Shown piece by piece: positions 24,437-32,202 of a stretch of 42,486 nt of DNA (its first letter is position 1; each line of letters opens with the position of its first letter). Source of the DNA: Brachyspira pilosicoli (GTDB taxonomy: Bacteria; Spirochaetota; Brachyspiria; Brachyspirales; Brachyspiraceae); the NCBI RefSeq assembly GCF_008016535.1, contig NZ_SAXY01000020.1, positions 1-42,486 on the forward strand, given 5' to 3'. A program made the position numbers and the translations under genes. The notes beneath the pieces were generated by a model. It did no database searches and was not told the DNA's origin. It was given only the letters and a program-made list of their open reading frames with translations.

Positions 24437-26929
24437 TTAAATATAAAATTTTTCTTTTAATGATAAAACCATATCTATATACATTTTTTTTGCTCTACTA
24501 TAATTTTTAATCAATAATTGATTATATATTTTATTTATATAATTATAATAAATATATTTATATATTTCTATATAGTTTTCTAGCTTATTTATATTTTCTA
24601 CTATATTAGGAGCTATTTCATAATACTCAGATATTAGTTTTTCTCCATCTTCATCTTTAATCAAATGTTCATCTCTATAATTATGAAATAACCGTATCTC
24701 ATCACAATCATAATCTTTACCTAAAGCTATATATGTAGCTGTTGTAATAAAACACCATTCAGATTTTTTAAATTGTTTTTCTTCTTTATAATATACATTA
24801 TTCAATTCATTATTTTTATTCTTTTTTATTTCTATCGCTTTTTTTCTACCCTTTAGTTTGTTAAGCTCCACTAAAGATTTTTCATTCTTAAATATTTTAT
24901 AAGATTGTTCATACATATTTATAGCTTCATCATAATCCTCATTTTTATAATATATATTTGCCATAAGTGTTAAAGCAGCATCTTTATTAGATTTAGATAA
25001 AAAAGTTAAAGCCCTTAGTTTATCACCATTATTATAGTATATAAAACCTACTTTATAATATATATCACTTAATTTATTTCTATCTAAATCATTTTTTGAC
25101 AACAAATATTGATACATTACAAGAGAGTTATTATTATATTTTTCGTATACAGAAGTATCTGCTCCACTATTTGAATTTTTGCTATCCACATATATACTTT
25201 TTGCCTTATAAAAATAATAATTTGCCATATCAAGAATAGCATCTGAATTACCCAATGCAGCAGCCATTTTTATATAGCTCATCGATGATTTATCTTTCTC
25301 GGATTTTAATAAAAGAGCATACTCATATGTAATATTTTTGTCAGAACAAATATTAACTAATTTATGAATATTTTTTTTATTAGATATATAACTTTTTATA
25401 TTAATTAATTTATTATATGCCAATGGAGAATTTTTTCTTAAAGATTTTTCATAATATTTTGTAGCTTCAGGCTCATTGTTTAATGAATAATAATAATCTC
25501 CAAGTAATAATAATTCCTTAGCATTAAATGAATATAGCAAATGATAATGTTTTTCTTCTAAATGAAATAGTAATTTACCTAATTGTATAGCATTGATATT
25601 TAATTCATGTTGAAAATTTGCTAAAGCTAATTTTTGGCATATAGATGCTTTATCATCATAATAAAAATTTTTTATATAATCTAAACTATCTTTTGATAAC
25701 AGCTTGTTATTAAATTGTTCTTTGTAAAGTTTATTAATATATAAAAAGTCATTGTCTTCATTGATTAATTTTTGAGATATTTCCTCAGCTTTATTATTAT
25801 CATTAGAATACAAAAAATTTAAATATGATTTTTGCATATTATATTTGTATCCGTCTTTTAATTTTAATTTTTTACCAATGAATTTTTTTTCCATTTGATT
25901 TTCTAAATCGTAAAAATACTTCTCAATTTGTTTTACCAATCTATAAAATTTTTGATTAGTTTTATTTAAAATATCCAATTCATTTAATATATCATCTTTA
26001 ATATTTTTAATAATATTTTCTATATTTTTATCTGATAATTTAACTATATCTTCATTAACTTTTCCTAATATACTTTCTTTTTGATTTACTAAATTAGAAC
26101 ATTGAAAAATAACATTTGAATATTCAAATATATACTTATCTGCAAAACTATAGTTTTTATTTACCAAATCATCTCTAGCTGAAATATAATTTTTTAAACT
26201 ATCAATATCTTTATATATTTTGATCTCATATTTATCACACAATTTTTTATTGTTATTATTTTGAGAGTATAATAAAATATATGCATCCAAATTTTTTTGC
26301 AATAATTCAAAATTAAATTTGTTTATAGAATCATCAGTTAAAATTAAAACATCTAAAAATTGAAATAAATATTTACTGTATTCAAAATCCATAGATGAAG
26401 GGAAATGAATGAACACCGTATTTGATAAATTAATATTTTCAGAAATAGCCGCACACTTTACAAAACTTTTTAAATTTAATTTATAATCAAAACTTTTTTT
26501 TGTAATATGGTAATAATCTTTTCTATCCATCATCACAATATTATCTATATTATTAATTATTCTTACTTCATCATTTTCATTTCCATTGTATATAACAATT
26601 GGAAACATATAATTATATATTTTTTTATTGTAAAAACTATGCATTATATTTAAATATGACTCATCTTTATTATTTGGAATAATTCCAACTATTGTTTTTC
26701 CAATTAATTCAGGGATTTTTATTAAAAATTTTATGCTTTCTATTATATTAGAACACTCATATATAAAATCTTGTTTTCTAGTATAAAAAGTTTTATTAAA
26801 AGAATTAAATAATTTATTATATATATTATCCTCTATAATATTAGAATATTCTTCAAATTCTGATGCAATATCTTTATTTTCAATAAAAAAGTTAGATAAT
26901 ATATTTATGTCTTTTTCTACATCATTCAT
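24437..26929 (-). CDS. Pseudo-GTPase / TPR-Sel1 repeat / CFI-box protein
   Basis: An 830-aa protein, last in the dynamin operon and 4 bp after the 427-aa GTPase gene. Residues about 1-260 look like a degenerate copy of the neighbouring GTPase domain: GKTIVGIIPNNKDESYLN (78-94) aligns with NKTVIGIGGKFSSGKSRFIN, but GxxxxGKS is lost; later MFPIVIYNG parallels SIPTYIING. A coiled-coil helix region follows, then TPR/Sel1-type repeats (about 440-700; e.g. LLLGDYYYSLNNEPEATKYY and LMANIYYKNEDYDEAINMY). The C-terminus has a CFI-box, WCFITTATYIALG...RLFHNYRDEHL (from Trp725). CFI-box function is unknown to me. It could act as an adaptor or sensor for the GTPases. The stretch to the convergent NYN gene (24273-24436) holds nothing recognisable. 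Confidence 0.75.
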   Translation of the reverse strand: MNDVEKDINILSNFFIENKDIASEFEEYSNIIEDNIYNKLFNSFNKTFYTRKQDFIYECSNIIESIKFLIKIPELIGKTIVGIIPNNKDESYLNIMHSFYNKKIYNYMFPIVIYNGNENDEVRIINNIDNIVMMDRKDYYHITKKSFDYKLNLKSFVKCAAISENINLSNTVFIHFPSSMDFEYSKYLFQFLDVLILTDDSINKFNFELLQKNLDAYILLYSQNNNNKKLCDKYEIKIYKDIDSLKNYISARDDLVNKNYSFADKYIFEYSNVIFQCSNLVNQKESILGKVNEDIVKLSDKNIENIIKNIKDDILNELDILNKTNQKFYRLVKQIEKYFYDLENQMEKKFIGKKLKLKDGYKYNMQKSYLNFLYSNDNNKAEEISQKLINEDNDFLYINKLYKEQFNNKLLSKDSLDYIKNFYYDDKASICQKLALANFQHELNINAIQLGKLLFHLEEKHYHLLYSFNAKELLLLGDYYYSLNNEPEATKYYEKSLRKNSPLAYNKLINIKSYISNKKNIHKLVNICSDKNITYEYALLLKSEKDKSSMSYIKMAAALGNSDAILDMANYYFYKAKSIYVDSKNSNSGADTSVYEKYNNNSLVMYQYLLSKNDLDRNKLSDIYYKVGFIYYNNGDKLRALTFLSKSNKDAALTLMANIYYKNEDYDEAINMYEQSYKIFKNEKSLVELNKLKGRKKAIEIKKNKNNELNNVYYKEEKQFKKSEWCFITTATYIALGKDYDCDEIRLFHNYRDEHLIKDEDGEKLISEYYEIAPNIVENINKLENYIEIYKYIYYNYINKIYNQLLIKNYSRAKKMYIDMVLSLKEKFYI

Positions 26930-26933
26930 ATTT

Positions 26934-28217
26934 TTAACCCTTTTTTACTATATTAGAAAAAGATGTATAAATCTTATTAGATACATCTTTAAATTTATAC
27001 TTTGAAAGCTTGATATTACTAATATAATTAGAAATATCGAAATACAAAGCAGTTAATGCCTTTATATATAAAGGCTCTTCTGAAATATAAATATTCTTTG
27101 ATATCATATCTTTCATTTTGAAATAATCTGTAAGCATATTATCCATTTTTTTATTAATTGTAGTAACTATATTATAAATATTTCTCATAATATCTTCATT
27201 TTTATTTTGATAACTCTCAGCATCATCTAGGAATTTTAATAATTTTGCCTCTTTGTCATATTTGGTATTATAATATTCTTTTGAAGAATATGGTATTACA
27301 TCATAAAATTTGATCTTATTTTCTTTTAGAATTATTTTAGTTTTATCTATACTATCATACATAGCTTTAGCATTATTAGGATTTGGATATGCTTCATCGC
27401 ATTTATTAAATATAAATAATATATCATTTTTATAATTTAATGTTTTTATGAACTCAACATCTTTATTATCAATAACCCCATCTTTAATCTTCATTAGCCA
27501 TATAATAAAATCTGACCCTCTTAATTGTTCTCTAGCCTGCTCAGCATCTGCTATTTTATTGCTATTGATATTAGAATCATCTTTAGAGTATCCTGGTGTA
27601 TCCAATATAGCAACATTTTTATATGGGAAACTACTAGAAGAAATTAGAATATTATCTATTATATATCTAAAACCTATTTTATATTTTTTATAAAATTTAT
27701 GTGTTAGTGCCTCTAATTCTTCTTTAGTAAGTATGATTTCAGTATTATTCTTAGTAAATGCTTTTATCTCTTGTTCCTTACCATTTATTATATATGTAGG
27801 AATTGAAGTAGTTGGTACTTGTGCTTCAGGTAAAATGTATAAATTCATAATAGAATTAATAAATCTAGATTTACCAGAACTAAATTTCCCACCTATTCCA
27901 ATTACTGTTTTATTTTGTAAAGATATCATTCTGTTGCTTTTGCTAATTTTATCACTAATATTTAAAAGCTCATTATATAATTTAATTTCGCCACCTAATC
28001 TTATAGAAGAAAAAGAATTCATAAAACTAGTATTTAAAGTTCTATTCAAAATCTGAAAATCTTTATAAAAAGTATTTTTTTGTATAGAAGAAATTTTAGA
28101 TATTAATTCGATACTTTTAATTGGATCATTTAAAATAGTATCTCTATCATCTTCATAATTATAGTTATTAGTAACATCATTAATATCATCTGCCTCATTT
28201 ATATCATTAAATCCCAT
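26934..28217 (-). CDS. Dynamin-like GTPase, short form
   Basis: A 427-aa GTPase with a dynamin-superfamily G domain: P-loop GKFSSGKS (110-117), switch I threonines in PTTSIPTY (136-142), DTPG (206-209) and NKCD (271-274), all intact. About 110 N-terminal residues are helical and acidic; the C-terminal 100 residues are helical but too short for a full stalk. There is no obvious membrane segment. It begins 14 bp after the interrupted GTPase and ends 4 bp before the 830-aa gene. A true ATG at 28217 is used. It may be a partner that co-assembles with the longer dynamins. Confidence 0.85.
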   Translation of the reverse strand: MGFNDINEADDINDVTNNYNYEDDRDTILNDPIKSIELISKISSIQKNTFYKDFQILNRTLNTSFMNSFSSIRLGGEIKLYNELLNISDKISKSNRMISLQNKTVIGIGGKFSSGKSRFINSIMNLYILPEAQVPTTSIPTYIINGKEQEIKAFTKNNTEIILTKEELEALTHKFYKKYKIGFRYIIDNILISSSSFPYKNVAILDTPGYSKDDSNINSNKIADAEQAREQLRGSDFIIWLMKIKDGVIDNKDVEFIKTLNYKNDILFIFNKCDEAYPNPNNAKAMYDSIDKTKIILKENKIKFYDVIPYSSKEYYNTKYDKEAKLLKFLDDAESYQNKNEDIMRNIYNIVTTINKKMDNMLTDYFKMKDMISKNIYISEEPLYIKALTALYFDISNYISNIKLSKYKFKDVSNKIYTSFSNIVKKG

Positions 28218-32145: not shown

Positions 32146-32174
32146 AAAATAATCCTATAAACATATCATTTCTT

Positions 32175-32202
32175 ATTATATTATAAATTCATAAATAATC
32201 AA
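32175..32202 (-). promoter_or_regulatory. Promoter of the dynamin operon
   Basis: On the minus strand TTGATT (32202-32197), 16 bp, TATAAT (32180-32175), about 30 bp before the ATG at 32145. An overlapping second TATAAT (32185-32180) is also present but is too close to the -35. Confidence 0.5.

Follow-up and report, generated by a model that had tools for sequence, protein, structure and literature searches.

So far, bacterial dynamins have been described in pairs, and what they are for is not settled. In Campylobacter jejuni, the dynamin-like proteins (DLPs) Cj-DLP1 and Cj-DLP2 are encoded in an operon that includes an HcpA-like gene of the Sel1 type, and the pair tethers liposomes, with a suggested role in repair. 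LeoA and LeoBC are co-encoded dynamins on an island. In Bacillus subtilis, a single dynamin, DynA, delays lysis and so gives protection from phage (PMC8844932). Here, we describe an operon of Brachyspira pilosicoli that encodes three dynamin-like GTPases, A, B and C, and a fourth protein, D, in which a pseudo-GTPase domain is followed by TPR/Sel1 repeats and a CFI-box. It lies on contig NZ_SAXY01000020.1, 42,486 nucleotides of a 2.76-Mb genome (hereafter the window). The most likely explanation, to which we give slightly better than even chances, is that this is a horizontally acquired, modular three-dynamin operon that would act on membranes as an anti-phage system.

The genes lie on the minus strand (Table 1) and are as tightly coupled as the initial annotation had stated, with a 4-bp overlap between A and B and gaps of 14 bp between B and C and of 4 bp between C and D, although the operon ends at 32145 and not at 32202 as that annotation had it. 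Dynamin_N was matched above its cut-off in A (E 1.2e-12), in the N-terminal open reading frame (ORF) of B (E 9.8e-21) and in C (E 3.7e-15), in line with the claim of three adjacent dynamin-type G-domain genes bearing the P-loops GKFNAGKT, GKMKAGKS and GKFSSGKS. The G1, G3 and G4 motifs of a dynamin-type GTPase were tabulated for all three proteins, the G4 of B lying past an in-frame stop. That stop had been missed: the proposed four-gene operon holds in that the same gene order is found elsewhere, but B is split by a TAA and five ORFs are read. A scan for promoters and terminators was uninformative, with 90 promoter-like sites vs 86 expected. In a tree of the G domains, A (63/63, support 0.99), B (70/70, support 1.0) and C (83/83, support 0.95) form three clean clades, a result only partly independent of the family labels, which came from full-length hidden Markov models (HMMs). 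Between species, the alignments of A, B and C extend over long stretches inside each family, with identities of about 19-41%, and matches between the families are mostly confined to the G domains. With three monophyletic families, an ordinary two-gene dynamin pair was rejected.

B is closest to Cj-DLP1 (5OWV pair, E 1.4e-26) and C to Cj-DLP2 (E 2.1e-15), which A also matches (E 1.1e-15). The best relative of A in the PDB, by sequence and by fold, is Nostoc BDLP1, with the mitofusins next; the fold match to BDLP1 has E 3e-16, the paddle region of the A model having a predicted local distance difference test score (pLDDT) <50. In each of the four A proteins that were examined, a strongly hydrophobic segment is similarly placed. 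The composition of the set seems to be one DLP1-like subunit (B), two DLP2-like subunits (A and C) and one pseudo-DLP2-like subunit (D), and by these relationships the operon is an expanded relative of the operon-encoded Campylobacter DLP1/DLP2 pair. It does not belong to that two-DLP class: three GTPases rather than two are conserved, a pseudo-GTPase-TPR-CFI protein is added in one subtype, and the three-dynamin family has a plasmid or island location with WYL and defence neighbours. BDLP1 and the mitofusins, fragments of which resemble the N-terminal half of D, are by contrast single-protein fusion or fission dynamins without a TPR or pseudo-GTPase partner, and DynA, in which two dynamins are fused in one protein, was rejected because its equivalog model NF052648 scored 37.3 bits against 1600. 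The open-access literature that was searched yielded no account of a three-dynamin system; subscription papers and preprints lay outside the search, so that any statement of novelty is provisional.

The Eleos system, LeoA-LeoBC, shares with the operon the co-encoding of bacterial dynamins, and the PADLOC library ties it to anti-phage defence, but it comprises two proteins rather than three and has no D. Its LeoA profile matched A only at residues 11-65 (E 2.6e-11) and B and C weakly or not at all, and the LeoA-family model DLP_LeoA_gen gave 26.8 of 325 bits; membership in Eleos/LeoABC was rejected. These comparisons also bear on a vesicle-secretion function like that of LeoABC in enterotoxigenic Escherichia coli. 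Such a role would agree with the weak LeoA and LeoBC matches and with the fact that LeoA and LeoBC are likewise co-encoded island dynamins, yet the curated LeoA-family model fails, the gene content differs and vesicle secretion has no bearing on the WYL and patatin links described below, so that we regard it as very unlikely.

The fourth gene, D, is related to C. The first 370 or so positions of a D profile matched C-family proteins (E down to 7e-21, with many between 1e-10 and 1e-16), the P-loop is lost in 12/12 D proteins, and in the tree D is sister to C with moderate support and one outlying D. Judged from this homology and from the loss of nucleotide-binding motifs, D is a descendant of C with a degenerate GTPase domain. 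Its AlphaFold model (mean pLDDT 79.7, predicted template modelling score 0.56) contains an alternating strand-helix domain at about residues 79-253 with a dynamin-like topology, two long helices, a helical solenoid and a helical CFI region; the pseudo-GTPase partner proposed in the initial annotation is borne out on all these points. Foldseek retrieved TPR solenoids and mitofusins 1 and 2 (E about 1e-4, probability 1.0), with low TM-scores over the whole chain, the mitofusin fragments resembling the N-terminal half. By sequence profile D matched Sel1-repeat proteins, TPR repeats were also detected, and the C-terminus of this 830-aa protein passes the CFI-box model NF041770 (54.3 bits, cut-off 40), as does that of the E. 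coli plasmid D (64.5 bits), in agreement with the TPR and CFI-box reading given earlier. The two proteins share 23% identity, aligning from residue 281 of D on. The CFI motif is present in 8/12 D proteins, including that of B. pilosicoli; three shorter ones (L022, L025 and L034) stop before it, and L026 is without the exact motif used. In the Fusobacterium match L019, the CFI-box region is the sole part in common with D. Two loci with a CFI-less D carry four extra genes after it (L022:13237-16837 and L034:11480-15011), those of L022 including radical-SAM and U32-peptidase family proteins. At L031, L032, L035, L038, L063 and L073, a C-family dynamin and Sel1 repeats at its C-terminus form one chain, an arrangement that may be ancestral to D.

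A single search of 84,980 species genomes, made with the G domain of the C family, yielded 80 loci, whose ORFs were then labelled with the HMMs. By record titles, these loci come from Bacillota, Pseudomonadota, Campylobacterota, Spirochaetota, Bacteroidota, Planctomycetota, Fusobacteriota, Cloacimonadota, Lentisphaeria and others. A, B and C occur together in 39 of the 42 loci with at least 17 kb of sequence, across many phyla; these loci were chosen for C, and the fraction measures A and B given C. The premise that bacterial dynamins usually come in pairs needs updating, the three-gene form being itself widespread. The main architectures are A-B-C, A-B-C-D and A-C-x-y-B. The order A-B-C-D is kept on E. 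coli plasmids and in nine Bacillota or uncultured loci, with gaps or overlaps mostly <30 bp; one intact E. coli plasmid copy lies at 44300-51888 of NZ_CP148279. Because the B. pilosicoli genes align to same-order orthologues on the E. coli plasmids, their arrangement is not due to chance, and the lack of co-conservation elsewhere that would have spoken against the initial annotation was not encountered there or in other genomes. The operon was detected in 5 of 5426 E. coli genomes and is plasmid-borne in all five; an E. albertii plasmid matches A, C and D, and plasmids of Calditerrivibrio, Pseudomonas aeruginosa, Photobacterium and Moraxella carry A-B-C or rearranged versions. Several of these plasmid copies lie beside transfer or partition genes, and broken copies are seen repeatedly, as would be the case for cargo that is costly to carry, raising the question of whether the operon serves in conflict with plasmids or conjugation, or as an addiction or stability module of its carrier element. 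This seems very improbable, since ordinary genome contigs carry the majority of the loci in the set and the operon shows no toxin-antitoxin-like pair. Horizontal acquisition and modularity, for their part, belong to the explanation that we favour, with the same modest lean towards it.

A putative anti-phage defence role is supported by genomic context. Of the 109 genes that lie closest to the operons in the set, 17 encode a WYL domain; the WYL family totals 21 members in 26 Spirochaetota genomes. At a generous 1% background, the binomial chance of such an enrichment is about 1e-15, the loci not being fully independent. Fourteen WYL genes share the strand of the operon and sit no more than 250 bp upstream of the gene that begins it. 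Defence systems such as BREX and CBASS are well known to be under the control of WYL regulators. In several A-C-x-y-B loci, the A protein, of about 1230 aa, carries an N-terminal patatin domain with the motifs GGGGKG, GTSVGG and DGG, and patatin-type phospholipases are of the kind used as CBASS effectors. A proteins of about 1220-1300 aa were seen at L031, L035, L038, L040, L046 and L052; all of these except L052 were read directly, and all five have the patatin-like domain. In some loci, B is followed by a HerA-like ATPase. PADLOC, run on the operon neighbours without a matched control set, returned BrxL, DndA/SspA, DarG, HerA and others. Proteins of about 1000-1040 aa stand after B in the A-C-x-y-B loci L059, L061, L064 and L083, that of L061 being HerA-like (DUF87); four to five neighbour proteins match HerA models. 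The set combines a defence and mobile context with a patchy distribution.

This patchiness is seen within Brachyspira itself. Related Brachyspira align to the window up to 21463 and then from 32279 to 35750, with nothing between, and the corresponding site in the relatives examined is empty or occupied by other genes. Because the flanking blocks lie apart in other Brachyspira species, the contig also carries a rearrangement, of which three near-identical insertion sequence (IS) copies of the IS3 type, at 21455, 22506 and 35760, are the obvious substrates. These copies and the NYN gene at 23610-24272 confirm the nearby nuclease gene and IS elements noticed before; the NYN gene is probably a separate gene of the same island as the operon. 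An oxidoreductase gene (2-oxoacid) at 32319-34583 marks a variable site downstream of it. In one relative (G007), the gene following it reads as a methionyl-tRNA synthetase; in a second (G019), one extra gene stands ahead of that synthetase-like gene; and in a third (G015), the same site (L104:4317-8866) holds a gene of 208 aa, one of 735 aa and one for a PD-T4-4-like ATPase that is a full-length match to PD-T4-4_A (E 1.4e-47). This position appears to vary between genomes and to acquire defence genes. Of 26 Brachyspira genomes, 4 have clear C-family genes, and one of the four (G023) has three separate three-dynamin loci, on contigs C3, C18 and C27. No D-type operon was found in the 25 other Brachyspira species searched, and the presence of the cluster in all strains at this locus, which would have counted against the initial annotation, is contradicted. 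A Brachyspira core locus was rejected, the D-type cluster being missing from the other species, the C family patchy and the site unmatched; a tRNA-targeted island was also rejected, with no tRNA in the window. The same distribution weighs on a machine for membrane maintenance or repair under envelope stress, such as antibiotics or lytic damage, for which phages would be only one trigger. Roles of this kind have been proposed for Cj-DLP1/2 and DynA, the homology of A, B and C to the liposome-tethering Campylobacter pair points the same way, and the HcpA-like gene of its operon recalls the Sel1 repeats of D. However, a housekeeping system should be stable within a genus, whereas the operon is patchy, plasmid-borne and beside mobile and defence genes, and WYL regulators and patatin fusions fit immunity better. 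We consider a repair machine unlikely.

Several observations weigh against an anti-phage function of the operon studied here. Among D-type loci, a WYL gene is adjacent only at L036, with one 3.6 kb off at L027, and the B. pilosicoli genome studied has none; it is mainly the sister subtypes, and not the D subtype, that provide the WYL and patatin links. PADLOC gave only weak local matches on the operon proteins themselves, gene B is broken in this isolate, and no relatives of the gene set were found in phages or viral contigs, on which ground a phage-borne set was rejected. The membrane-acting immunity candidate put forward in the initial annotation consequently stands in part: WYL genes, the HEC-09 and PD-T4-4-like proteins, the defence neighbours and the patatin fusions speak for it, while the interruption of B and the origin of the strongest hints in sister subtypes speak against it.

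The stop in B leaves ORFs of 282 aa and 449 aa in the same frame, 18 bp apart. Most B orthologues are intact, with ordinary, unremarkable residues at the stop position, and the product as read would be without G4 and the stalk. The TAA is either a true nonsense mutation or an assembly error; with it, the operon is probably inactive in this isolate. Alternatively, B could be naturally split into two working chains, as in leoC/leoB, a conserved split DLP, and the fully open 449-aa downstream frame would agree with this. Yet the LeoC/LeoB break falls between G2 and G3, while here a single TAA stands between G3 and G4; only six codons separate it from the GTG of the second ORF, which is without a clear ribosome-binding site; and B is a single chain in most orthologues, D-type operons included, the exceptions looking like lesions. 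A natural split is very improbable. Split A or B genes recur at L018, L022, L048, L056, L063, L070 and L076, which suggests frequent inactivation, as expected of a costly system, although some may be assembly errors.

Table 1 Features of the B. pilosicoli window.
Feature	Position	Strand	Description
Operon A-B-C-D	32145 to 24437	-	five ORFs as read
Gene A, dynamin-like GTPase	30445..32145	-	566 aa; P-loop GKFNAGKT; hydrophobic segment ~442-462 (putative membrane paddle)
Gene B, CjDLP1-like dynamin GTPase	28232..30448	-	~738 aa on readthrough; in-frame stop inside
B, N-terminal ORF	29600..30448	-	282 aa; G1-G3 of GTPase domain; P-loop GKMKAGKS
B, in-frame TAA	29600..29602	-	between G3 and G4
B, C-terminal ORF	28232..29581	-	449 aa; GTG start; remaining GTPase domain and helical stalk
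Gene C, dynamin-like GTPase	26934..28217	-	427 aa; P-loop GKFSSGKS
Gene D	24437..26929	-	830 aa; pseudo-GTPase domain about 60-260, long helices 262-350
Gene D, C-terminal part			TPR/Sel1 solenoid residues 359-709; CFI-box about 726-797
Accessory segment (IS copies, NYN gene and operon)	21463..32279	.	without match at corresponding sites of related Brachyspira
Two tandem IS3-type copies	21455..23563	-	left bound of accessory segment
NYN-domain gene	23610..24272	+	full-length match to candidate defence family HEC-09, E 2e-49; convergent to operon

Elsewhere in the window, an 811-aa ORF at 10412-12847 (+) has no Pfam or PADLOC match; the surrounding region (about 10274-12850) is skipped by the matches of three related Brachyspira and constitutes a second accessory insertion. 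A chloramphenicol acetyltransferase family protein (PF00302, E 6.5e-74) is encoded at 7246-7872 (+).

In the anti-phage system that we favour, B, as the CjDLP1-like subunit, and A and C, as the CjDLP2-like subunits, would form a hetero-oligomer on the inner membrane, with the hydrophobic segment of A inserting in the bilayer. Docking of D, probably onto C, would be through its dead GTPase domain, and an infection signal may be sensed or recruited by the TPR/Sel1 solenoid and CFI-box of D. Release or assembly would then lead to GTP-dependent membrane remodelling, by which phage release would be stopped or the infected cell killed; in sister subtypes, the membrane damage would come from the patatin phospholipase that is fused to A. 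In this isolate, the system would probably be disabled by the stop in B. More broadly, we see an even chance that these loci belong to a large family, not described before, of modular immune systems that are built on three dynamins and occur in many phyla, in which an A-B-C core would be combined with interchangeable modules, namely the pseudo-dynamin-TPR-CFI adaptor, Sel1 repeats on C, patatin on A, a HerA ATPase and WYL control, the dead dynamin serving here as a sensor-adaptor. The intact version of the operon on E. coli plasmids makes this directly testable. A conserved set of three paralogues, with a pseudo-dynamin partner here and a fused phospholipase elsewhere, would show that bacteria have built multi-part dynamin machines, probably for immunity, and would offer a bacterial parallel to the antiviral dynamins (Mx) and immunity-related GTPases of animals.

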